Below, in pieces: positions 16,589 through 63,622 of a stretch of DNA of 64,000 nucleotides. The stretch spans positions 992,001 through 1,056,000 of the forward strand of contig CM016928.1 of the NCBI GenBank assembly GCA_006247105.1. The letters run 5' to 3'. Source of the DNA: Giardia muris (taxonomy: Eukaryota > Fornicata > Diplomonadida > Hexamitidae). Positions within the stretch are counted from its first letter, which is position 1, and every line of letters starts with the position of its first letter. Position numbers and translations under genes: made by a program. The notes under the pieces were generated by a model. That model had not been told where the DNA came from. It did not search any database and saw nothing but the letters and a program-made list of their open reading frames with translations.

Positions 16589-17899
16589 TCAGAACCCGAA
16601 GGCCACGCGGGCGACGGAGATGGCGACGAGGCCTGCGAAGAGCCGCAGCCACAGCCGTGCCAGCTTCTCTCGGAGCCCGTCGACGCCGGCCTTCTCGTCG
16701 TGCTTCCACGTCAGCACGACCGGCGTCTCGAACCGTTGGGCGGCCGAGACGCGCCCCGCGGAGGCGACGCAGACGCTGCGGCGCGCCACGGAGTCCAGCG
16801 GCCCGAGGCCGTCGGAGCCGCCAGAAACCGGATTCTGGCTCGCCGGGAACGACAGGTGCAGCGCGACGTCGCGCGAGCCCGCGGGCGGGTGGAGGCAGAG
16901 CGAGTGGGCCTCGTAGAACGCGTCGCGGACGAGCGGGGCGGGGAGCAGGCTGGCGGCGCGGGCCTCGTCGCCCTCGCCTCCGCCCTTCTCCCTCACGCGC
17001 ATGACGAGGGCACAGGTGTACTCGAGGCGGAGGCGGGTCTTCGCCCCGGGCGCCAGGGGGTGGCGCGGCCGGAGGGAGACGCGCGTCCCCGTCGCGGTCG
17101 CCGCCAGGATCCGCAGTCCGTCGATCTTCCCGATCCGGTCGCCGTAGCGCACCGTCGCGTACTCGACGGCGCACGGCAGCTCGACGACGAGCGCGGCCGC
17201 CGTCGCTGCCTTCGCACCCGCCCTCGCCGCGACGTTCCGCACGAGAATTTCGTCCCGGATTCTGGCGAGGCCGAAGCGCTCGCGGTCGGCGGCCGGGGCG
17301 AGCGCGAAGCCGGCGAGGCGGACGTCGCGCGACGTCTGCACGGCGAGGACGGGCCGGCGCCGCTCGTAGCGCAGCATGAGCGGCGTGCACTGTAAAGCCG
17401 CGACGTCCCTCAGCGCTGGCAGCGCCTGCGACGGCGCGTAGTCTGCGTCTCCGACGGTCGCCCGCCCGAGCGCGACGCCGTCCGCGGCGCTCAGCGTCGT
17501 CCGCTCCGCCGCGACGGCCGCCGGGATGCGCGCCTCCAGGCACGTGGCGACCGCGCCGTCGCCCCCGTCGCCCGTCTCCAGCCCGACGTGGACGACGACG
17601 ACGTCGAAGGACGCGCACCCGCGCGGGACGTCGACGCTCAGCGCCGCCTCGTCCGTCAGCCGCGCGCGGAGCCGCTCGCCGCCGCACGTCGCCTCGAAGT
17701 GGCCGACCTTCTCGGCGTCGACGAGCCAGACGAAGCGGGCGGGCCCGTCGGCGCCCAGCGCGACCGTCAGCGCCTCCGTCAGGCCGCCGTCCGCCCCGAC
17801 GACGAGGCGGCGCTCGACGTGGTCGATGCGCTCAGCGGCGCTGGGGGCCCCGGCGCCGGCGCAGGCGAGCAAAAGGAAAAAAAGCGCCGAAAATTCCAT
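16589..17899 (-). CDS. ribophorin I / OST1-like secretory membrane protein
   Basis: 436 residues from ATG at 17899 (gagaaaaATG), followed at once by a signal peptide (MEFSALFFLLLACAGAGA). An upstream in-frame ATG at 17929 adds 10 residues. A hydrophobic C-terminal segment (LFAGLVAISVARVAFGF) could anchor it. Around residues 240-350 the order of features recalls ribophorin I: a DEILVRN strand, VRYGDRIGKIDGL (compare YRDEIGN), SLRPRHPLAPG (compare RPRFPLFGGW), and a FYEAHSLCLHPPAGSRD element. Ribophorin I is a non-catalytic oligosaccharyltransferase subunit in the ER. The similarity is partial and the protein is shorter than the ~600-residue norm. The alternative is an unrelated secreted protein. 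Confidence 0.45.
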   Translation of the reverse strand: MEFSALFFLLLACAGAGAPSAAERIDHVERRLVVGADGGLTEALTVALGADGPARFVWLVDAEKVGHFEATCGGERLRARLTDEAALSVDVPRGCASFDVVVVHVGLETGDGGDGAVATCLEARIPAAVAAERTTLSAADGVALGRATVGDADYAPSQALPALRDVAALQCTPLMLRYERRRPVLAVQTSRDVRLAGFALAPAADRERFGLARIRDEILVRNVAARAGAKAATAAALVVELPCAVEYATVRYGDRIGKIDGLRILAATATGTRVSLRPRHPLAPGAKTRLRLEYTCALVMRVREKGGGEGDEARAASLLPAPLVRDAFYEAHSLCLHPPAGSRDVALHLSFPASQNPVSGGSDGLGPLDSVARRSVCVASAGRVSAAQRFETPVVLTWKHDEKAGVDGLREKLARLWLRLFAGLVAISVARVAFGF

Positions 17900-17921
17900 T
17901 TTTCTCTTTTCGCGCACGCGC

Positions 17922-20900
17922 TCAGGCACCCCCGGAGCGCGGCGACGGGTAGTTCGCGTCGAGCCCGTCGAGGCTCCGGCTCCCCTCGTCCTGGGTTCCC
18001 GTCCGGTCCGACAGGAGGAGGGAGAGCGGAGAGATCGGGAGGGGCGCGGGCCCGGGGGTGCTGCTGCGCGACCCGGACGAGAGGAGCCCGTTCCTCTCCC
18101 GCTCTCTTTCTCGCTCCCGCTCCTCCTCTCTCCGCTTGCACCTGGCGCGGAGGACGAGGAAGAGGGTGAGGGCGATGAAGACGAGGATTCCGACGGCGAG
18201 GACGGCGAACATGACCGTCTTCAGCGGGTTGCGGGCCGCCCCGACGCAGCGGCCGCCCGGGGCAAGCTCGAAGCCGTCCCGGCAGCTGATGCAGCGGAGC
18301 CCGTCCGGGAAGAGGCAGAAGAGGCACGCCTCGTCCGCGCACTCCCGGACGTAGCCGCAGTACCCCTCGATCGGGGCGAGGCCCTCGATGCTGCACTCGA
18401 TGCAGGCGACGCTTGTGCAGCGCCGGCACCACGTCCCGCAGAACTTGCAGCTCCCGTCGACCGGGTCCAGGTAGCGCCCGCTGACGCACTCCTCGCAGAC
18501 GGTGCCGTCCCCGCCTCCGCACCGGAGGCAGCCGTCGACCTGGCAGGCGCGGCGCTCCGCGCAGCGGCCGGTGGCGTCGGGGACGAACGCCTGGTCGTCC
18601 CGGCACTGGATGCAGCGCTCGAGGTCCTCGTTGAGGCAGAAGCGGCAGTCGGGGAGGCAGGCGCGGTCCGTGTACGAGCAGACGCCGTTGACGGGGCTGA
18701 TCGACGTGTCCCGGCACGCCTTGCAGAAGTCCGAGGTCAGGCAGGCCTCGCAGTCGGCCGGGCAGGGGAGGCAGCTCCCGTCTCCGGCGAGCCAGAAGTG
18801 CTCGGCGCAGGCGGCGCAGAGCGTCGCGTCCGCGAACGAGCAGCGGGCGCAGTCCGCCACGCTCAGCAGGCAGGGCGCCGCGGGGACGCAGACACCGTCC
18901 TGGACCGCGTAGTCCCCGCTGCTGCAGCGCGTGCACGTCCCCGCGACGCACTCCGCGCAGTTCTCCTCGCAGAGCGTGCAGGCGCCCGTCCCCGGGACCC
19001 GCGTCCCCCCGCTGCAGACCCGGCAGCGCTGCTCGTCGCCCCGCTCGCACGCCGCGCACAGGTCGACCGAGCAGAGCGTCGTCAGGACGACGAGCCCCCC
19101 GAACGGCCCGTCCAGGTTCCACACGGCGTCGTAGTCCCAGCAGGCCTCCGTCGCGCACGGAGACCCGAGGATGACGTAGTCGCCCTCCAGGTAGAAGAGG
19201 TAGTACCCGGGGAGCGCCAGGTGCGGGTCCGGGTCCCCGGCAGGCGTTGCGCGCACTGTATGCTCCGTTGCGTCCGTTGCGCCCTCCGCCGCCCCCGCCC
19301 CGTCCAGCCAGACCCTCCGGTAGAGGTAGTAGGGCGTCGAGGTGAGGTGGGGCGGCCTCGAGCGGCGCTTCGACCAGGTCTGGTCCGGGCCGAAGATGAG
19401 CTTTCCGGCGTAGAAGCCGTCGTCCCCGTCGCTGATGAAGTCGTGGAGGGAGACGGTGTAGGGCGACTGGGAGACGTTCGGGCTGTCGAGGATCCAGAGG
19501 TTCTCGAGGGCGCCCGCGAAGCCGTAGGCGGCGAAGGGGCGGAAGGCGATCGTGACGGGGGCGAAGCTGTCGAACTGGACGGAGACGTTGAGGAGGACGT
19601 TCTTGAAGTGGAAGCGGGCGGGGTCGCCGTCGGGCCGCTGGACGAAGCTCGCGGACGCGTCGTTCATCAGCTCGCGCAGGTTCGTCCGGAAGTGGAACGC
19701 CCCAATGACGTCTGCGATCTCCAGATTATGGCGGAGGTGCGTCCCGAAGGCGGCGACCGACGAGTGGCCGAGCGCGGGGACCGTCTGGAACGCCATCTGC
19801 GCCCCGACGCTCCACCAGACGCGGCGGACCGCGTACGCGGAGACGCCCGCGCCCGTGTTCGCCCGCCCGAGGAAGCCGCCGAGGTAGATTCCGACGTTCT
19901 CCGAGAACTCCGTCGCGAGGTCCTCGAGCAGGACGAAGGCGTCGTGGACCTCGACGGCCCAGGCGGGGTCGTCTCCGAGCTCGACGACCCCGACGAAGCC
20001 GCCCAGCGTCCCCCCGCTCCGCCCGACCCGCACCTCGAGCGCCCTCCCAAACGCCGAGCACCGCCCGACCCGGCTGTTCGCCACGACGTTCAGAAAGCCG
20101 CCCGCCCCGAAGCCGCTCGCCCCCGTCGCGTCGACGACGACCCGCTTGAAGACCACGTAGCTGTCGACGACCGTCGTCCCCTCGGCCGCGTTCCCGAACG
20201 CCCCGAACGCGAGCGGCGTGTCTCCCGGGATGGCGTCGGCGGGCGCCTGCGAGGCCGGATTTTCGCCCGCAGAATTCGCCGCCGCGGGCATCGCGACGGA
20301 GCGCAGGAAGGCGCCGCACTCGGACAGCGTCGAGTTCACGAGGCGGGCGGCGAAGCCGCCGGCGTTCGCGGTCGCGACGAGCTGGCGGACGGTCACGGAG
20401 GACATCGTGACGTTGCAGCGGGCGCACTGGCCGAGGAAGCCCCCGACGTCCTCGACGCCCGCGGAGACGACGCGGAGCCCGCTGACGTTGCAGGCGCCGA
20501 CGGCCGCGAGCGCGTCTCCGCCCGCCGTCGCGACGCCGAGGCGGCCGAGCAGCCCCCCGAACGCCGCGTCCGCGGGCTGCTCGCAGGCGACGTCGGCGTC
20601 GAGCGCCGTCACGGACGAAAAGTGGACGTCCGCCTGGGCCTGCCCGAGCAGCCCGCCGACGACGCACTCCCGCTGGCCCCGGACCCGGATCGCCACGTTC
20701 CGCGCGCTGCAGTTCAGGACGGCGTCCTCGGAGGCTCCGAGCAGCCCCCCGACGACGCAGACCGACGCGTTGCACTCCAGCGCGCCCTCGAACGTCAGCG
20801 CCTGGACGGGCGCCGCCTTCGCCGCCGCTTTCGCTTTTCCCTCCGCCGGCTGGACGCGTTTGAGCCCCGCGACGCCTCCGACGAACGCCTTCCGCGCGCC

Positions 20901-21503
20901 CGCGTAGCGGATGCTCGCGTTGACGGCGGAGACGAGCGGGAGCGCGTATGCGACGCCCGCGAAGCCGCCGAGGTGGCAGCTCTCGAGCGGGTCTGCGAGC
21001 CCCGCGCCTGCGCTCCCAAAATCCGAATTTTCGGCCGGCTCGGCCGCAGATCCCGCCGTTCCGCCTGTTGCCGCCGCCACGTAGTCGAGGAAGCCGCAGA
21101 CGGTCACGTTTTGGCCCTCGAAGGTGGCGGTTGCGACCCCAGCGAAGAGACCGACGTCGACGACAGTGGAGGTGGCCGTGGCGCCCGTGGAGGCGACGCT
21201 CACGTTGACGTCGACGTGGAGGTTTTTGACGGAGCCCGAGAAGACGGCGAAGAGGCCGCAGGCGGTCCCGGCGTGGCAGGTGACGGCGGCCGCGAGGCGG
21301 TGTTCGTTCCCGTCGAGGACGCCGTAGAACGCGGGGAAGGGCGAGATCGGGTCGGGGAGCTCGAGGTCCTTGTCGAGGACGAAGGAGCCCCCGGGGCAGA
21401 GCGCAAGGTAATCCAGATCCTCAGGGGTGCTGAGGGAGATCACGTTGGCGCAGTGCTGGGATGGGGAGCAGAGAGGGAGGAGGAGGAGGGCAAAAAAAGG
21501 CAT
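17922..21503 (-). CDS. high-cysteine type I membrane protein with GLUG-like repeats
   Basis: 1193 residues. An N-terminal signal peptide (MPFFALLLLPLCSPS) is followed by residues ~25-800, Cys-poor beta repeats of the pattern GGFLG...N..V..V that resemble GLUG/adhesin beta-helix repeats. Residues ~805-1090 are Cys-rich with many CxxC pairs (CAACERG, CRVCSGG, CTLCEENCAEC), as in Giardia high-cysteine membrane proteins and VSPs. One transmembrane segment (FAVLAVGILVFIALTLFLVL, ~1098-1120) is followed by a 70-residue basic, Arg/Glu-repeat tail. The tail lacks the CRGKA end of true VSPs, so this is an HCMP rather than a VSP. It probably sits at the cell surface. Confidence 0.8.
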   Translation of the reverse strand: MPFFALLLLPLCSPSQHCANVISLSTPEDLDYLALCPGGSFVLDKDLELPDPISPFPAFYGVLDGNEHRLAAAVTCHAGTACGLFAVFSGSVKNLHVDVNVSVASTGATATSTVVDVGLFAGVATATFEGQNVTVCGFLDYVAAATGGTAGSAAEPAENSDFGSAGAGLADPLESCHLGGFAGVAYALPLVSAVNASIRYAGARKAFVGGVAGLKRVQPAEGKAKAAAKAAPVQALTFEGALECNASVCVVGGLLGASEDAVLNCSARNVAIRVRGQRECVVGGLLGQAQADVHFSSVTALDADVACEQPADAAFGGLLGRLGVATAGGDALAAVGACNVSGLRVVSAGVEDVGGFLGQCARCNVTMSSVTVRQLVATANAGGFAARLVNSTLSECGAFLRSVAMPAAANSAGENPASQAPADAIPGDTPLAFGAFGNAAEGTTVVDSYVVFKRVVVDATGASGFGAGGFLNVVANSRVGRCSAFGRALEVRVGRSGGTLGGFVGVVELGDDPAWAVEVHDAFVLLEDLATEFSENVGIYLGGFLGRANTGAGVSAYAVRRVWWSVGAQMAFQTVPALGHSSVAAFGTHLRHNLEIADVIGAFHFRTNLRELMNDASASFVQRPDGDPARFHFKNVLLNVSVQFDSFAPVTIAFRPFAAYGFAGALENLWILDSPNVSQSPYTVSLHDFISDGDDGFYAGKLIFGPDQTWSKRRSRPPHLTSTPYYLYRRVWLDGAGAAEGATDATEHTVRATPAGDPDPHLALPGYYLFYLEGDYVILGSPCATEACWDYDAVWNLDGPFGGLVVLTTLCSVDLCAACERGDEQRCRVCSGGTRVPGTGACTLCEENCAECVAGTCTRCSSGDYAVQDGVCVPAAPCLLSVADCARCSFADATLCAACAEHFWLAGDGSCLPCPADCEACLTSDFCKACRDTSISPVNGVCSYTDRACLPDCRFCLNEDLERCIQCRDDQAFVPDATGRCAERRACQVDGCLRCGGGDGTVCEECVSGRYLDPVDGSCKFCGTWCRRCTSVACIECSIEGLAPIEGYCGYVRECADEACLFCLFPDGLRCISCRDGFELAPGGRCVGAARNPLKTVMFAVLAVGILVFIALTLFLVLRARCKRREEERERERERERNGLLSSGSRSSTPGPAPLPISPLSLLLSDRTGTQDEGSRSLDGLDANYPSPRSGGA

Positions 21504-21526
21504 CTTTTTCCCCTCCTCGTGACCAC
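21504..21526. promoter_or_regulatory. 23-bp divergent promoter
   Basis: Only 23 bases separate the start codons of the surface protein (minus) and the actin-related protein (plus). The minus side has GGGGAAAAAG before its ATG. Confidence 0.45.
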
Positions 21527-22549
21527 ATGGCGCTCTTCCAGCTCGTCCAAGCGAACGCGTTCGTCGTCGACCTCGGGGCGCACCGGCTGAAGCTCGGGTT
21601 GGCGCACGACGTCGGGCCGACGACGTTCCTCCCCTTCCAGCCCGTCTACCTGGCCGAGCCCGAGCGCCTGGCCCAGCGGCTCTACGACGCGTACCGGACG
21701 ACCTACGCAGCGCTCGTTTCGGAGCCGCAGCCCGTCTTCCTCGCGGTCGCCCAGGACGCCCGGCCCTCCTTCCTCTTTCGCCTCGCTGACTGCCTCCTCT
21801 CCGTCTTCCCCGGGGTCGTCTTCCACTCCGCCCTCTCCTGCGCCCTCTACGCCTCCGGCCGCCTCACTTGCGTCCTCCTCGACGCGGGCCAGCGCGCCCT
21901 CCGCGTCGTCACCGCCCTCGACGGCGTCCTCCTCGACGTCGTCCGAGAATCCAGATTCTGCGGCGCCGCCTTCGAGTGCGAGCTCCTCCGGCTTCTGCGC
22001 GGGGGCGCGGGAGGCACCTTTGAAGGCGCACTTGGGGACGCCTCCGAGCTCGTCCCGGGGACGCCTCTGGCGGAGCTGCTCGACGGGGTCAAGCGGGACT
22101 TCCTGGCGGCCTCGTTGGACCCGGGGCGGGACGCGGCCATCTCGAAGACGACCGAGCTGTACACGGCGTCGTTCCGCCTCCCCTGCGGGACCGAGCTCGT
22201 CCTGAACGGGGAGAAGCACGGGCTCTTCGAGGAGCTGTACGGGCGCTCGGAGCTGCTCGGGACGGTCACCACCGCGCTGGAGACGAAGGCGCTGACGTCC
22301 GGCTGCTCCGGCGGCGGTGTCCCGCTCGTCCTCAGCGGCGGCCTGTCGGGGCTCGCGAATTTCGGGCGGCGCCTTTCGAGGGACCTGCGAGGCGCGAGGG
22401 CGGCCGTCGTCGGCTCGCAGGACGCCGCGAACGCCGTCTGGCAGGGCGCCGCGGCCTTCGTGGGCGTCGGGATCCTCCAGGATGCGATGATCACCCGCCG
22501 GGCGCTCGACGAGGAGGGCGCCCACCTCCTCGCCCGCGTCGTCGTCTGA
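21527..22549 (+). CDS. divergent actin-related protein
   Basis: 340 residues from ATG 21527; an earlier in-frame ATG (21461) lies inside the opposite gene and is rejected. Actin-fold landmarks are visible: the phosphate-1 loop (AFVVDLGAHRLKLGLAHD), phosphate-2 region (LTCVLLDAGQRALRVVTALDG), adenosine loop (PLVLSGGLSGLANFGRRL), and C-terminal WQGAAAFVGVGILQDAMITR (compare the WI.GS.LAS..Q..WIT pattern of actin). It is shorter than actin (375) and lacks several actin loops, so it is an Arp, possibly nuclear or cytoskeletal. The subfamily is not assigned. Confidence 0.75.
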   Translation: MALFQLVQANAFVVDLGAHRLKLGLAHDVGPTTFLPFQPVYLAEPERLAQRLYDAYRTTYAALVSEPQPVFLAVAQDARPSFLFRLADCLLSVFPGVVFHSALSCALYASGRLTCVLLDAGQRALRVVTALDGVLLDVVRESRFCGAAFECELLRLLRGGAGGTFEGALGDASELVPGTPLAELLDGVKRDFLAASLDPGRDAAISKTTELYTASFRLPCGTELVLNGEKHGLFEELYGRSELLGTVTTALETKALTSGCSGGGVPLVLSGGLSGLANFGRRLSRDLRGARAAVVGSQDAANAVWQGAAAFVGVGILQDAMITRRALDEEGAHLLARVVV

Positions 22550-53455: not shown

Positions 53456-54985
53456 ATGTTATCACATCGATATGCCCCCTTGTCGTCATCCCTCGTGGCG
53501 AATGCGTCTCCCTACGACATCGCAATCGTGGTCTGTCCTCAGCTTGACGCCTGCGTGGCGCTGAAGCGCACGATCGAGACCACTTGCCTCCGGGGCGAGC
53601 CCGTCAGCATGCACTTGAATAAGTACTTGTATCCTGGGCATACTTCCTTCCTACTAAGTGCAGCAGACGTTTGCGCCCTACACCCAGCCCCAGGCGTGTT
53701 CCCACGCTCCTCTCTTATCATTCCCGTATACCTTTTTGACCCTACACGCTCCTGTAACACCGTTGATGATCCTGGTCTCCTCATCAATGGAGAGCTTTCG
53801 ATAAGCCTTTCTCAGGCCACCAGCTTGGTCTTGTCCTGGGGTGTCGAGTCACATACATTTAGTTCCATCTCTAGGACTTGTCAGGTGGAGTTCTCCACTG
53901 CCTTGGTCTCCCCTCTTCCCAAGGTCGAGTACTTGAGCTCGACATTTACGACGCGCCGCCCCGGAGACTTTCTCCCCTTCGATCTCGCTTCGATCCCTGT
54001 GGCTGTCGGAAAGCTCGCAGCATGTGTTCATATACCCCACTCTCCCCTATCAACGACACTCCATATCGACCTAGCTTTAGATGACCTCTGGGACGACGCG
54101 CAACATGCGTTCACTTGTTTCTCCGCATTCTGCCTTGATCCAGACCCGAAGGCCGTGATTATGGGCGATGCCGGGCATCCCTTTTCGTCTTCGAAAGATG
54201 GAGGACAGGCATGCGATGTCATGGGGACTAAGATAATAGCGGAAACAGAACACTCCCGAAGCTTCTCCTTACGCCTAGCGCCATGTAGCCGTCCCATTGA
54301 GGTAGTTCTTGAGTATACCCCAACTGATGTTATCCTTGTCATCGATCCACGGGATTCCAGTGGCCAAGTACATAGAACTGTGATTTGGAATGGACCCAGC
54401 TCAAGACTCGTTTCAGCACGAGGAACCCTTGGTTCCGATGGGTTACTCCCATCTCCGGCCTTTTCAATGAGCGGTCTGCTCTATACGGAGGATGAGGTCA
54501 TGCCCTTCAGCCTCCCACGTGGCTTTCAACGCGATCTTGAGGATCGTCTGGGATCATCCAGCTTATCAGCAATATTTCGTGCTGGAGTGGCGGGAACGAG
54601 CTTTTCCAGCTTCTCCTACGCTTTGGAACAAGGCAGGAGGTGCGTACAAGGTGGAGAGTGCCCGAATCCCTTGTACTCGAAAATCCTCGCTTACTTCATC
54701 TTGGCTTTCCTCATCTGGTCCGGAACCATCATCTTCTTGGGTCTTGGTCTATGGCTTCGCCTCAGGAATAAGTCAAGACTACGCTCCCAACATGGAAGCC
54801 GACTTCTGAGACGTCCAAGGAGACTCTCACGAAAACAGCGAAAACTGATCGCAGACGCGACGGTGTCAGCGTTCGAACGACTCTGCAACGAACGCCTGAC
54901 GCTCGCGCACGAGCTGATGATGACGCGGGGGACGTTCTCGGACCTCCACCTCCAACCCGGAGGCCTCGAGACCGTCATTGAGTAA
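53456..54985 (+). CDS. single-pass membrane protein, unknown function
   Basis: 509 residues. A long beta-rich, Cys-containing region (residues ~1-400) precedes one strong transmembrane segment ([22 protein letters not shown], ~415-436). A very basic cytosolic tail ([17 protein letters not shown]) follows. No clear signal peptide at the annotated start, so the N-terminus may be elsewhere or entry may use the TM. The topology recalls type I receptors or fusogens, but I found no diagnostic motif. Its 3' end overlaps the Hsp90 half-gene transcript: stop and AGTAAA lie on the reverse of the Hsp90 processing motif. Confidence 0.6.
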
Positions 54986-54989
54986 AGGA
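54978..54989 (-). promoter_or_regulatory. Giardia RNA 3'-processing motif TCCTTTACTCAA
   Basis: The minus strand reads TCCTTTACTCAA exactly, the 12-nt motif reported downstream of Giardia ncRNAs and of the 5' halves of trans-spliced introns, where the RNA is cut. It is the only perfect copy I found in the window. Confidence 0.85.
54981..54986 (+). terminator. AGTAAA poly(A) signal of the membrane protein gene
   Basis: Plus-strand AGTAAA contains the stop TAA (54983-54985). It is the reverse complement of the core of the Hsp90 processing motif. Confidence 0.55.
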
Positions 54990-55025
54990 AACACACAACA
55001 CACAGCGGCTGACGCACACACATAC

Positions 55026-56050
55026 ACCTTCTTGACCATGAGCTTGATCCCGGTCTTCTTCTTCTGGGCGTCCCACATATCGAAGGGGGCACGCTTGGGA
55101 ACGAATAGAATGCCACGGAATTGGGCGGCACCGTCGACGCGGAAGTGAGTGACCGCAAGGTAACTCTCGTAGTCCGAGGGGTTAATCTGCTTGTAGAACT
55201 CCTTGTACTCGTCCTCGGTAACGTCCTTCGGGTCACGAGTCCAGATCGCAGGCTGCTTGTTGACCTGCTCCTCGACCTCGACCTCCTTCTTGATGGTCTT
55301 CTTCGTCTTCTCCTTGTTCTCGTCGTCGGAGGCCTCTTGTACCTCGTCCTCCTTCTTCTCCTCGGTCTCTTCCTTCTTCTCCTCATCCTCGACCTCAACC
55401 TCTTCCTCCTTGACCTTGTGGATATAGATCGGATACCCGATGAACATCGAGTGGCGCTTGATGAGCTCCTCGAGGCGGTCAGCCTTCAGATACTCCTTCT
55501 GGTCTTCCTTGAGGTGAAGGACGATCTCCGTACCGCGAAGGATCGGCTTCCCAGAGGCTCCAACGTCACAGTCCTCGATCTGGAACGTCCCACCGGCCGT
55601 CGAAGACCACTTGTAGCACTTGTCATCGTTGTGCTTCGTGATGACTTCGACCTTCTCGGCGACGAGGTATGCGGAGTAGAAGCCGACACCGAACTGGCCG
55701 ATGAGGGAGACGTCGGCGCCCTCAGAGATCATCTCCATGAACTGCTTCGCCCCAGACTTAGCGATCGTACCAAGGCAATTGATGAGGTCGGCCTTGGTCA
55801 TCCCAATCCCGGTGTCACGGATGACGAGGAGGTTGTTCGCTTCCTGAGGGATGACATCGATCCTGAGCTCCTTCTCCTCGCCAAGGATGGCGGGGTTCGT
55901 GAGGGAGGTGAAGTGGAGCTTGTCGAGGGCGTCGGACGCGTTCGAGATCAGCTCACGAAGGAAGATCTCCTTCGAGGAGTAGAACGTGTTGATGATGAGG
56001 TTCATCAGCTGGGAGATCTCGGCCTGGAACTCAAAGGTCTCGCTTGGCAT
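55026..56050 (-). CDS. HSP90: Hsp90 N-terminal half (split, trans-spliced gene)
   Basis: Coding from ATG 56050 to about 55026 (342 codons, the last one split as GT|N). It contains the full N-terminal ATPase domain: [50 protein letters not shown]. The acidic linker and the start of the middle domain follow ([20 protein letters not shown]). The frame runs on to 54866 but matches Hsp90 only up to VKKV, where GTATGT begins. In intact Hsp90s this point reads V(R/K)(R/K)VFI, so a phase-2 join would restore the frame. The middle/C-terminal half and the MEEVD end are absent from the window. The processing motif downstream supports the known Giardia HspN/HspC system. Confidence 0.93.
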
Positions 56051-56067
56051 TTTTGAACTCAGGAGTG

Positions 56068-56095
56068 ATCAATCACCCAGATTTACGATTGATTG
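56068..56095. promoter_or_regulatory. ATCAATC / CGATTGATTG elements upstream of Hsp90
   Basis: ATCAATC at 56068-56074 lies inside the inverted repeat GTGATCAATCAC, and CGATTGATTG is at 56086-56095, 36-45 bases upstream of the ATG. The same 10-mer (opposite orientation) occurs at the same distance upstream of Hsp70. Confidence 0.4.
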
Positions 56096-56117
56096 CTAGT
56101 CGATCCCGGATCAACCT

Positions 56118-58058
56118 CTATCCGATATTCTGGTCCTCGGCCGTGGTCTCGGCGGGGACGTGGTGGTGGCTCATCACGACGCAGTTCTGGAGGTTACAGC
56201 CCTCCCCAATTGTCACATTGTCGTAGACGACGCAATCGATTAAGGTACTTTTCGGATGGACCTGGACGAAACGGCCAAGTACGCAGTCTTTGATAACGCA
56301 CCCATCTCCAATGGTGCACCCTTCTCCTAAGACGCAGTCTGTTATCTTCGCCATACCTATTTTGCACTCGAATTGCACCAGGGAGGACACGACGTCGGCG
56401 CCCTCGTCGAGTTTGGAGGGCTTCCTATTCTTCCGTTGTTGCCGTTCCAGTTGCTTCTCATGCTCGGTTGAGAGGTGGAGGTTACATAGGATCCCGTCTT
56501 TGACGCGCAAGCAGATGAAACGGTACGTGTCCGTAGAGTCTATGAAGCCATGGATCGCGGGAAAATCGCGCGCACGGTGGTTCTCACGCGGCTGGTTAGT
56601 GATCTCGAAGGCCTCTACGATCAACTTACGTGGGGGCTTCAATGAGGCTTCTAGCGTCGTCTCTATCAATGGCTCGTTGAACTCCTTGAGAAGCGCCAGG
56701 GTATCGATGTACTTCTTTGCCTCGTCGGCGCTTCGGCTTTCCAGCTTCATGAAGAGGCGCTTCATATATGCTGACCCCATGGCGGAAGGACGGCCTCCAT
56801 CGTCATCAATGATGCTAGGGTATGCAAGGGACGACCCAGGGCTCCCACCCATCGCACGGAAACTACCCCCGTCGTCCATGTACCCAGACGTCTGACGCAG
56901 TCGAGCTCGAGGTTGTTGCCCAAGCTCGTCCGCGCTCAAGATACGTTCGAACTCGTATCTCTGAGGGGCAGGCGCCTCGTATAGCTCCGGGGTGCTCTTC
57001 AAATACTCAGCCACTCGGGGATGTCGTGCGGCTGGTGGGAGTAGTTGTTGCTCGACAAGGAACGGGATAAGATCGAAGAATACAGAATCGAGGGACGAGA
57101 TCCCTTCCAGGTATGGGATTAGCTCTCGAGCAAGTACGACAATGCAAGGGAGCTGGGTGAAGGCACGAAGACGAGCAGTGCTCCGAATGGCCGAGAAGGG
57201 GAGTGTCAGAAGCTTATCTTCTTGGTCCGAAATGAGCCCTCTATCCAATGTGTGATAGAATGTGAGGAGTCCAGTGAAGCATGGAAAGGCGGAACATTCC
57301 AATCCTTTCAGGCCTTCGGGGCCATACGTGGTGCCAAGAACCTGGTCCAACTCATGCAATTCCATGGCCGTTGGCATCTGGAATGTATCCTCCGGTACGC
57401 CGAGCTCGCTCTCGCTACAGCTGCGATCCAGCTGAAAGGCAAGTCCCGTGTGTTTCTTAGGCCTTTCCCCGACCCCTGTTTGTGACTCTTGTATCCGGTA
57501 TTCTAGTGCGCTTTTCGTCGGGGTGGTTACGCTGTCCTCGATGAGGGTGACGCAGCCTCTTTTGCACTTCGAAAGCTTCTCGTTGTGGGGCGTGTCCATC
57601 CGCAAGTCCGAAAGGACGACCGTCATCGTAGCGTTCGAACACCTATGATGGCGTAGGTATAGAGATGGGGCGACGGCGCTGATACATGAGGACTGAATGA
57701 CGATGATATTCTCACCCGTCAGAATCCCCTCCTTCATCATCTTAACCAACGCTTGGACAGATGTACTAGCCTCAGGGTGCGAGTATGCGGCGATGTGTAA
57801 GGAGTCCAGGTGTTGATCGACCTTCAGGTTGCGCAGCTGCTCACAGACGTCCTCGTGGGCGCTCTTTTGGCAGACGACATGGAAGGAAGTGAAGCCATAG
57901 GCGGAGTAAATGGCAATTGTGTGTGCGAGGGCCGGCTTCCCGCAAACCGGGAGGAATGCCGCCGGCTGGGGGGCATACGCCATGAGGTTGTGCGGGTCGT
58001 CGTCCATCCCCACGAGGAAGACGACCTGCGCCTCCGTCGGAAGTGTCCAGTCTCCCAT
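56118..58058 (-). CDS. eIF2B gamma-like subunit (nucleotidyltransferase-LbH)
   Basis: 646 residues. The N-terminal nucleotidyltransferase-like domain includes PQPAAFLPVCGKPALAHTI and later strands. The C-terminal left-handed beta-helix has hexapeptide repeats (KITDCVLGEGCTIGDGCVIK, STLIDCVVYDNVTIGEGCNL). A long insert (~165-430) is disordered. There is no C-terminal W2/HEAT domain, which argues for gamma rather than epsilon. eIF2B recycles eIF2-GDP and is the target of the integrated stress response. The start ATG 58058 is 11 bp from the divergent gene. Confidence 0.8.
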   Translation of the reverse strand: MGDWTLPTEAQVVFLVGMDDDPHNLMAYAPQPAAFLPVCGKPALAHTIAIYSAYGFTSFHVVCQKSAHEDVCEQLRNLKVDQHLDSLHIAAYSHPEASTSVQALVKMMKEGILTGENIIVIQSSCISAVAPSLYLRHHRCSNATMTVVLSDLRMDTPHNEKLSKCKRGCVTLIEDSVTTPTKSALEYRIQESQTGVGERPKKHTGLAFQLDRSCSESELGVPEDTFQMPTAMELHELDQVLGTTYGPEGLKGLECSAFPCFTGLLTFYHTLDRGLISDQEDKLLTLPFSAIRSTARLRAFTQLPCIVVLARELIPYLEGISSLDSVFFDLIPFLVEQQLLPPAARHPRVAEYLKSTPELYEAPAPQRYEFERILSADELGQQPRARLRQTSGYMDDGGSFRAMGGSPGSSLAYPSIIDDDGGRPSAMGSAYMKRLFMKLESRSADEAKKYIDTLALLKEFNEPLIETTLEASLKPPRKLIVEAFEITNQPRENHRARDFPAIHGFIDSTDTYRFICLRVKDGILCNLHLSTEHEKQLERQQRKNRKPSKLDEGADVVSSLVQFECKIGMAKITDCVLGEGCTIGDGCVIKDCVLGRFVQVHPKSTLIDCVVYDNVTIGEGCNLQNCVVMSHHHVPAETTAEDQNIG

Positions 58059-61627: not shown

Positions 61628-63622
61628 TCAGTCAAGATCGTCGACCGACGGGCCAGCAGGAGCGCCAGTCGGCATCCCTGGCATTCCTGGCATCCCCGGC
61701 ATTCCACCCATGCCTCCAGGAGGCATCCCGCCGGGCATGCCACCCATCCCCATCCCCGGAACGGCTCCAGCTTGAGCAAGGATCGGATGGACGATCGCCT
61801 CGACCTCCTTCCGCTTCGCCTCGAAGAGGTCCTTGTCGCCTGTGCGGTTCGCCTCGAGCCAGGTGGAACAAGCGTCGAGGGTCTCCTCGAGCTTCTTCTT
61901 GTCGTCATCCTTCAGGTTCAGCTTGCCCTCGGAAAGAGTCGACTTCGCCCCGAAGACTAGGCTCTCAAGCTCGTTACGAGCCTTCTGACCCTCGCGGATC
62001 TTCTCATCCTCCTTCGCAAAGCGTTCGGCATCCCTGACCATCCGATCGATCTCCTCCTGGGAAAGACGATTAGCATTCTGGTTAATCGACAGCTGCTTGG
62101 AGTTCCCAGTGCCACCAAGATCCTTGGCAGTGACGGTCAGGACACCGTCAGCGGAGACATCATAGGTGACCTCGATCTTCGGGACTCCACGAGGAGCAGG
62201 AGGGATGCCGCCGAGGTCGAACGTGCCAAGAAGATTGTTATCCTTCGTCAGAGGCCGCTCACCCTCGAAGATGCGGATCGTGACGGTCGTCTGGTTATCC
62301 GCGTACGTCGTGAACGTCTCCTTACGAGTCGTCGGGACGGTTGTGTTACGAGGGATGAGAACCGTCATGTTCGTCCCCGAGGTCTCGATACCAAGGGAAA
62401 GCGGGGTGACGTCGAGCAAGAGGATATCGTTGAGCGCACCATCGCCAGCCTGAGTCTTATCGGAACCAAGGATGGCAGCCTGGACTGCCGCACCATACGC
62501 AACCGCCTCATCTGGGTTGACACTCTTCGAGAGCTCGCGGTTGTTAAAGAAGTCCTTGAGAAGCTGCTGGACCTTCGGGATACGAGTGGAACCACCAACG
62601 AGGACGATGTCATGAACCTCGTTCTTCGAGATCTTCCCATCCTTAAGGACGCGGTCGACGGGCTCGAGGCACTTGCGGAAAAGGTCGATGCAAAGGTCCT
62701 CGAACTTCGCACGCGTGATTGACGTGAAGAAGTCAACGCCCTCAAATAGGGATTCGAGTTCGATCGACGCCTGCTGGCTCGAGGACAGCGTGCGCTTCGC
62801 GCGCTCACAGGCGGTACGGAGACGACGAACGGCACGCGCCGATCCGCTGATATCCTTCCCATGCTTCTTCTTGAACTCGGCGATGAGCCAGTTGACGAGG
62901 CGGGAATCGAAGTCCTCACCACCAAGGTGCGTATCACCAGCCGTTGCCTTGACCTCAAAGACGCCCGACTGGGGGTCAACCGTCAAGAGGGAGACATCGA
63001 AAGTACCGCCACCGAGATCGAAGATCAAGATGTTGCGCTCCCCACCAGAAGTGTTCTTATCGAGCCCATAAGCGATGGCAGCGGCTGTTGGCTCGTTGAT
63101 GATGCGCAGGACGCTAAGGCCGGCGATCGTCCCGGCATTCTGGGTCGCCTTACGCTGGGAGTCCGAGAAGTACGCGGGAACCGTGATGATTGCCTCCGTC
63201 ACCTTCGCTCCGAGGTAATCGGAGGCGATGTCCTTCATCTTCGTGAGGACCATCGAGGAGATCTCTTCGGGGGAGAAGGTCTTCTTCTCACCCTTGAAGG
63301 TGACCTGGATCTGAGGCTTCTCATCGGGGCCGGAGACGACCTTGAAGGGGAAGTGCTTCATATCCGCTTGGACCTCGGGGTCGTTGAAGCGGCGCCCGAT
63401 CAGGCGCTTAGCGTCGAAGACGGTGTTCTCAGGGTTCATCGCGGACTGGTTCTTCGCAGACTCGCCGATCAGGCGCTCTGTATCGGTGAAGGCGACGTAC
63501 GAGGGGGTCGTGTAGGTCCCCTGGTCATTCGCAATGATTTCGACCTTCCCGTTCTGGAAGACGCCGACGCACGAGTACGTGGTGCCAAGGTCAATGCCGA
63601 CAGCCGGAGCCACAGGTGCCAT
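61628..63622 (-). CDS. HSP70: cytosolic Hsp70
   Basis: 664 residues. Classical motifs: [44 protein letters not shown], and the substrate-binding domain [20 protein letters not shown]. There is no signal or targeting peptide. The C-terminus has GGMPGM-type repeats as in cytosolic forms but ends PSVDDLD rather than the canonical EEVD. It works with J-proteins, Hsp90 and CCT, which are represented nearby. Confidence 0.96.

Follow-up and report, generated by a model that had tools for sequence, protein, structure and literature searches.

The Hsp90 gene of Giardia muris is, on the evidence of its sequence, very probably a split gene (at a probability of about 0.96), the front half of which, HspN, lies on contig C4 and would be trans-spliced to a back half, HspC, located on contig C3. 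HspN occupies positions 54978-56050, on the minus strand, of the 64-kb stretch of DNA analysed here (the window, C4:992001-1056000), and its partner was sought in the whole genome (9,737,486 bases in 52 contigs). The trans-splicing of G. muris genes is already known (2020), and what is added here is a second HspN copy, the ending of both duplicated donor blocks at the RNA processing motif and the overlap of stop codons with AGTAAA on the opposite strand of that motif.

Organization of the HspN locus

The HspN exon (55026..56050, minus strand) extends from the ATG at 56050 to its last base at 55026 and encodes the N-terminal part of Hsp90 up to the split point, with 341 complete codons and the first 2 nt of a divided one. 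The half-intron begins at 55025 and runs to 54978, and it contains, in this order and all on the minus strand, the 5' splice site GTATGT (55020..55025), four bases, the 13-nt sequence GCGTCAGCCGCTG (55003..55015), which is the perfect complement of the HspC 3' half-intron (16 nt with G-U pairs), the GU-rich element TGTGTTGTGTGT (54991..55002), which is common to the trans-splice donors of this genome, one T, and the 12-nt 3' end processing motif TCCTTTACTCAA (54978..54989). The donor consensus of G. lamblia trans introns is GTATGTT (PMC5224939), and the role of the 12-nt motif is known from the same species (PMC3510501). The first-pass annotation had recognized at 54978..56050 the N-terminal half of a split Hsp90 gene with a perfect 12-nt motif within 50 nt, and both statements hold, the former through the donor, the complement, the element, the perfect motif and a partner on C3, and the latter through a distance of 48 nt from the start of the donor to the end of the motif. 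When up to two mismatches were allowed, TCCTTTACTCAA was matched three times in the window (2.43 expected), the only perfect match being that of HspN, and a perfect 12-mer is expected about 0.008 times per 64 kb (both strands, equal base use).

The similarity to the Hsp90 family had been traced to about residue 342; the exon stops within the split codon GT|C, so that HspC supplies the last base of the codon for residue 342 (V). The only match to PF00183 in the window is that of HspN (model positions 1-165), and the reading frame continues past the donor to a local stop at 54866, giving an ORF of 394 aa. HspN is flanked by a convergent ORF of 509 aa (53456..54985, plus strand; TAA stop at 54983-54985), with no Pfam match, and, upstream, by a gene encoding a 646-aa hexapeptide-repeat protein that resembles eIF2B epsilon/GlmU (56118..58058, minus strand). 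A 664-aa ORF (61628-63622), which shares the strand of HspN and lies about 5.6 kb upstream of it, looks Hsp70-like by eye from its start. Long ORFs on opposite strands also overlap elsewhere in the window, at 17526-21590 (plus, 1354 aa) and 17922-21503 (minus, 1193 aa).

The HspC partner and the predicted joining of the two halves

Genome-wide, PF00183 gave at least three matches, located on C4 (the window), on C1 (a second HspN) and on C3 (the C-terminal part). Model positions 161-499 correspond to C3:1115751-1116770, which we designate HspC, and the window contains none of this part, as had been noted from its sequence. Among the matches listed, the C-terminal half is found in one place, on C3, which is another large contig than that of HspN (C4). 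The ORF starting in the Hsp90 middle domain and the preceding 3' half-intron complementary to the GT-rich stretch of HspN, both of which had been proposed as targets for a genome search, were located at this place. Upstream of HspC lie CAGCGGCTGACGC, the perfect complement (13 nt) of the HspN stretch at 55003..55015, and the acceptor CTAACACGCAG (C3:1115745-1115755), one base off the extended 3' splice site consensus of G. lamblia, CT[AG]ACACACAG (PMC5224939). The HspN and HspC half-introns pair over 13 nt perfectly and over 16 nt with G-U pairs, with a duplex energy of -46.7 kcal/mol. In a shuffle control, 13 nt was reached by 1/2000 sequences and the energy by 0/2000, and among random 70-mers of the window, within which the donor's own antisense lies, 1/2000 reached both. 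HspC was the best partner of HspN among the seven CTAACACGCAG sites of the genome and also among all nine matches to the acceptor pattern.

The same junction is indicated by the proteins. HspN residues 4-341 align at 74% with residues 3-341 of P0003, a contiguous Hsp90 relative listed as 72% identical to HspN, HspC aligns with residues 343-526 of P0003, and the valine missing between the halves is supplied by the GT+C codon; exact abutment of the two halves was observed on all three contiguous Hsp90s compared (P0003, P0004 and P0006). Between the acceptor and the first Met of HspC there are 33 residues, GVVDCDDLPLNISRE among them, and the junctional sequence of G. lamblia likewise has 33 residues and the signature peptide GVVDCDDLPLNISRE (PMC4006730), which suggests that the split point is identical in G. 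muris and G. lamblia.

A truncated Hsp90 pseudogene, or a break caused by an assembly error, could also give a 394-aa ORF that runs on to a local stop, and the HspN frame does so. Nevertheless, donor, complement, element and motif are all present, the remainder of Hsp90 starts exactly where HspN ends, and a like layout is in print for both G. lamblia and G. muris, in the latter case with a main text that leaves the gene unnamed, all of which makes such an origin of HspN highly improbable. Taken together, the two loci of the split gene show the sequence features of a Giardia trans-spliced gene, i.e. a GTATGT donor, a 3' splice site in the partner, pairing half-introns, the processing motif and separate exons that abut. 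The resemblance to the HspN/HspC layout of G. lamblia that had been suspected is supported by partner, half-intron and complement in the same genome, and so is the conservation of split and motif in another Giardia species, here G. muris, as was already in print in 2020 (PMC7641422).

By analogy with G. lamblia, transcription of HspN would begin at the A-run that precedes its ATG, and the RNA would be cleaved at the 12-nt motif or close to it. The residual half-intron would then pair through its 13-16 nt with the half-intron preceding HspC, and the spliceosome is predicted to join GT|GTATGT to CTAACACGCAG|C (55026 to C3:1115756) in vivo, creating the codon GTC (Val 342) and restoring a full Hsp90. 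The second HspN on C1, which is equally intact, could supply the same HspC.

Trans-splice donors and acceptors in the genome

Two donor patterns were searched genome-wide. The pattern TGTGTTGTGTGTN{0,8}CCTTT gave five matches, all of donor type (control, 0), namely the two HspN copies (C4 and C1), two copies of a dynein donor on C1 and a further dynein donor on C2. The pattern GTATGTN{6,36}CCTTYHHTHAA also gave five matches, all of donor type (reversed-pattern control, 1), which were the two HspN copies, the two C1 dynein donors and a site at C5:565051 that bears the GU-rich element as well. C5:565051 lies downstream of the acceptor C5:562660, which suggests that a middle dynein exon ends at this donor. 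Of the dynein stalk domain, the C1 donor exon encodes model positions 1-261 and the sequence after the C5 acceptor positions 264-340, so that the two pieces fit together. The C2 dynein donor (C2:908532, L029) starts with ATATGT and the exon at C3:432595 (L057) reads CGCAGAC|ATGG; we read the trans intron between them as putatively of the AT-AC type. Neither donor pattern recovered, anywhere in the genome, the p68 helicase donor that has been published.

The acceptor pattern CTRACACRCAG is by itself a weak finder, with nine matches versus five in the control; seven of the nine are CTAACACGCAG. Partners were compared over these seven sites, and the other two (L053 and L056) were covered by the separate comparison of all nine matches. 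Within the seven sites, the HspN, C5 and C2 donors each showed the longest perfect complement and the lowest energy with the partner indicated by the reading frame. The C1 dynein donor had its longest complement (9 nt) with L055 and its lowest energy with C1:382868, and reached 8 nt with its presumed partner, so that complementarity alone cannot assign every pair.

With up to one mismatch, the 12-nt motif has 64 matches in the genome versus 43 in the control, and 30 of the 64 were viewed; the motif alone was rejected as a finder of new trans-spliced genes. Six of the 64 are perfect. Three of these are donors (HspN of the window and both C1 dynein copies), two lie within open frames of 633 and 585 codons (L004 and L009), and one (L007) lies outside such a frame. 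A search of Rfam with six motif loci gave no match at the gathering score. The sequence TCCTTCACTCAA occurs once on each of 17 small contigs and is perhaps linked to rDNA repeats.

A second HspN copy and a duplicated dynein donor

A DNA search with window positions 54700-56300 revealed one further place in the genome, C1:2706172-2707248 (L002, L035). The repeated block (54978..56054, minus strand, in the window) is 1077 bp long, 1076 bases being identical. It opens 4 nt ahead of the ATG and reaches into the processing motif, and the flanks of the two copies are unrelated. The sole mismatch is at motif position 10 (TCCTTTACTCAA in the window versus TCCTTTACTTAA on C1), and since it lies inside the motif, the true homology may end after TCCTTTACT. 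On C1, HspN has as neighbours a convergent 760-aa ORF, with no Pfam match, and, on the opposite strand, a kinase-ankyrin gene. With MEPHLP taken as its start, this gene would begin about 30 bp from HspN; its longest open frame starts earlier, within the HspN block. In the protein database, the 342-aa exon product is found on two contigs, the longest of which (2,823,333 bases) has the length of C1, although these entries may come from the same assembly.

The dynein donor is duplicated too. It is found at C1:1956501 and C1:2029199 within an 8764-bp block with 4 mismatches (C1:1947749-1956512 and C1:2020447-2029210; L041-L044) that carries a NOP9-like gene and the dynein donor half. One end of the block coincides exactly with the motif TCCTTTACTCAA and the other falls one base past the stop of the NOP9-like PUF gene, which is on the opposite strand and divergent. 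At this far edge, copy A directly follows the stop of an ORF and copy B begins 17 bases past a tRNA-Glu. Block ends thus coincide with the processing motif in both duplicated donors (2/2).

The processing motif on the opposite strand

In antisense, two frames of the motif (TTGAGTAAAGGA) contain stop codons, and the AGTAAA found there agrees with AGURAA, the poly(A) signal of G. lamblia (PMC9014877). Overlap of stop codon and poly(A) signal has been reported, also for G. muris (PMC9014877; PMC7641422). Five donor loci were examined, i.e. the two HspN copies, dynein copies A and B and the C2 donor, the C5 donor being outside this set. At three of the five, a long opposite-strand frame stops in the motif antisense and overlaps AGTAAA: the window HspN (TAA), the C1 HspN (TAA) and dynein copy B (TGA), with frames of at least 500 codons as limited by the locus. 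At dynein copy A and at the C2 dynein donor no long convergent frame was found at the motif, and the C2 motif is a variant without AGTAAA. Such a dual use is a compact arrangement, the motif serving for 3' processing on its own strand and as stop plus poly(A)-type signal on the opposite one, and it is not described in the relevant passages of the papers cited here.

Origin of the second HspN copy

Edges that coincide with a gene were also looked for at other paralogues, in a small sample of our own choice. Of ten histone-fold loci, three pairs matched. Two of them (L063/L064 and L070/L071) are near-identical over all the sequence fetched (3378 and 3291 bp, with 3 and 2 mismatches), and the third, which we read as H2B, has 449 identical bp that begin 67 nt ahead of the ATG and finish with the T of the stop codon, including no 3' UTR; its members diverge there, within AAGT(R)A. 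Among the beta-tubulins, two copies have 60 nt of upstream sequence in common, and the third diverges from them 9 nt ahead of the ATG. Among the alpha-tubulins, the match of one copy to another (99.4%) begins 10 nt ahead of the ATG and continues for 36 nt after the stop, and the other two copies have 420 nt of upstream sequence in common. Gene-exact block edges thus recur in this genome without being universal. Their presence at ordinary paralogues favours gene-sized DNA duplication or homogenization over retrocopying and weakens any attribution of the HspN copy to trans-splicing or to RNA.

The unit-exact edges most likely reflect a gene-sized DNA duplication, the identity being due to recent origin or to gene conversion and one junction lying at a stop/AGTAAA gene end. 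Reverse transcription of a motif-cleaved, unspliced pre-mRNA into C1 beside the kinase-ankyrin gene had been favoured, as the block is bounded by what would be transcript ends on the G. lamblia model (4 nt before the ATG and the motif) and the half-intron is kept in the C1 copy. This origin was dropped as the favoured one in view of the dynein block, which ends at the motif yet includes the NOP9-like gene on the other strand and so cannot be one mRNA, and of the gene-edge blocks at other paralogues, including the histone-fold pair, in which identity ceases at the stop codon and covers no 3' UTR. By eye, no A-tail, target-site duplication or clear insertion scar is evident at the C1 junction, although a motif-cleaved RNA needs no tail, and very few retrotransposon sequences have been reported in G. 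muris (PMC7641422), a point tempered by the 13.4% of the genome counted as unidentified interspersed repeats (PMC11787283). We regard retrocopying as unlikely. An assembly artefact is less likely still; misjoins can arise at identical sequence, but the flanks are single-copy (both sides of the window copy, the upstream side of the C1 copy), the convergent frames are intact up to both joins, and the database has the exon product on two contigs, which may again be those of the same assembly.

DNA duplication could have proceeded in two ways. One, a plausible course to which we give somewhat less than even odds, is a 3' join by microhomology between CTTTACT of the motif and the AGTAAAG stop-poly(A) signal of a convergent target gene, so that the duplication junction would lie at a stop/AGTAAA gene end. 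It agrees with the opposite-strand frames that stop over AGTAAA at three of the five donor loci, with the position of the only HspN mismatch within the motif and with the histone-fold pair that parts within AAGT(R)A, but dynein copy A and the C2 donor lack a long convergent frame, the 5' block edges carry no such signal and one alpha-tubulin pair remains alike until 36 nt beyond the stop. The other, which may well apply without our holding it to be probable, is that the duplication is old and was pared down to the functional unit, gene conversion keeping the copies identical. Blocks meet gene edges on both sides at HspN, on the 3' side at the histone-fold pair and on the 5' side at one beta-tubulin and one alpha-tubulin copy, and gene conversion or recombination has been proposed for the VSPs of G. 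muris (PMC7641422). Against it, identity extends far beyond the gene at some loci (3.3-3.4 kb at L063/L064 and L070/L071, 420 nt upstream of two alpha-tubulins), a pattern suggestive of recent segmental copying.

It is tempting, though rather doubtful, to propose that G. muris donor halves multiply as self-contained modules, from A-run to motif, independently of their acceptors, and that, since the motif reads in antisense as a stop codon plus a poly(A) signal, they can lodge at the end of a convergent gene with no harm to that gene. If this is true, there would be two donors for one acceptor.

Comparison with known trans-splicing systems

Replication factor C synteny was tried and rejected as a guide to the ancestral HspN copy, as neither of the two PF08542 matches is near HspN. 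A second HspN copy is not mentioned in passages, supplements aside, of the literature on Giardia genomes and trans-splicing (PMC7641422, PMC10711314, PMC8494341, PMC3510501, PMC9014877, PMC5224939, PMC11787283 and PMC4006730), and 12 of the 13 places on duplication in PMC7641422, supplements aside, mention no HspN or dynein donor copies. Xu et al. (2020) reported for G. muris five trans introns and the motif TCCTTTACTCAA, and stated that all four trans-spliced genes have homologues in which the splicing motifs are conserved (PMC7641422); Hsp90 is one of these four genes (PMC10711314), and the main text of PMC7641422 contains neither 'Hsp90' nor 'heat shock'.

Hsp90 trans-splicing is among the few cases of an essential protein assembled from RNAs of separate loci. 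If the second HspN is real and expressed, the copy numbers of the two halves of one protein would be independent of each other, and a natural test of the minimal trans-splicing donor module would be provided by the duplicated donors.

An HspN fragment resembling that of Giardia is P0005, a protein of 293 aa (82% identical over 76% of the query), which ends KKVYVMFVCCMCARLLYSN... with a read-through tail (LLYSN) that, as judged from the protein alone, would fit a donor and TCCTTTACTCAA in frame; unlike G. muris HspN, it is a single fragment on a 1175-base contig. With HspN/HspC of G. lamblia, the G. muris gene shares the kind of split, the GTATGT donor, the intermolecular complement, the 12-nt motif and the 33-residue stretch with GVVDCDDLPLNISRE, whereas its acceptor CTAACACGCAG departs by one base from the G. 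lamblia consensus. The HspN precursor of G. lamblia runs into replication factor C subunit 5 (PMC3510501), whereas in G. muris a convergent ORF follows, and Rep_fac_C has two matches, the nearer about 190 kb from the C1 HspN. There are two HspN copies in G. muris, unlike in G. lamblia. Finally, both halves of the G. lamblia gene are on chromosome 5, 777 kb apart (PMC8494341), whereas those of G. muris are on different large contigs, which the G. muris genome paper hypothesizes to be chromosomes (PMC7641422). If C3 and C4 are chromosomes, HspN/HspC pairing cannot need a shared chromosome, which bears on the proximity model of G. lamblia.
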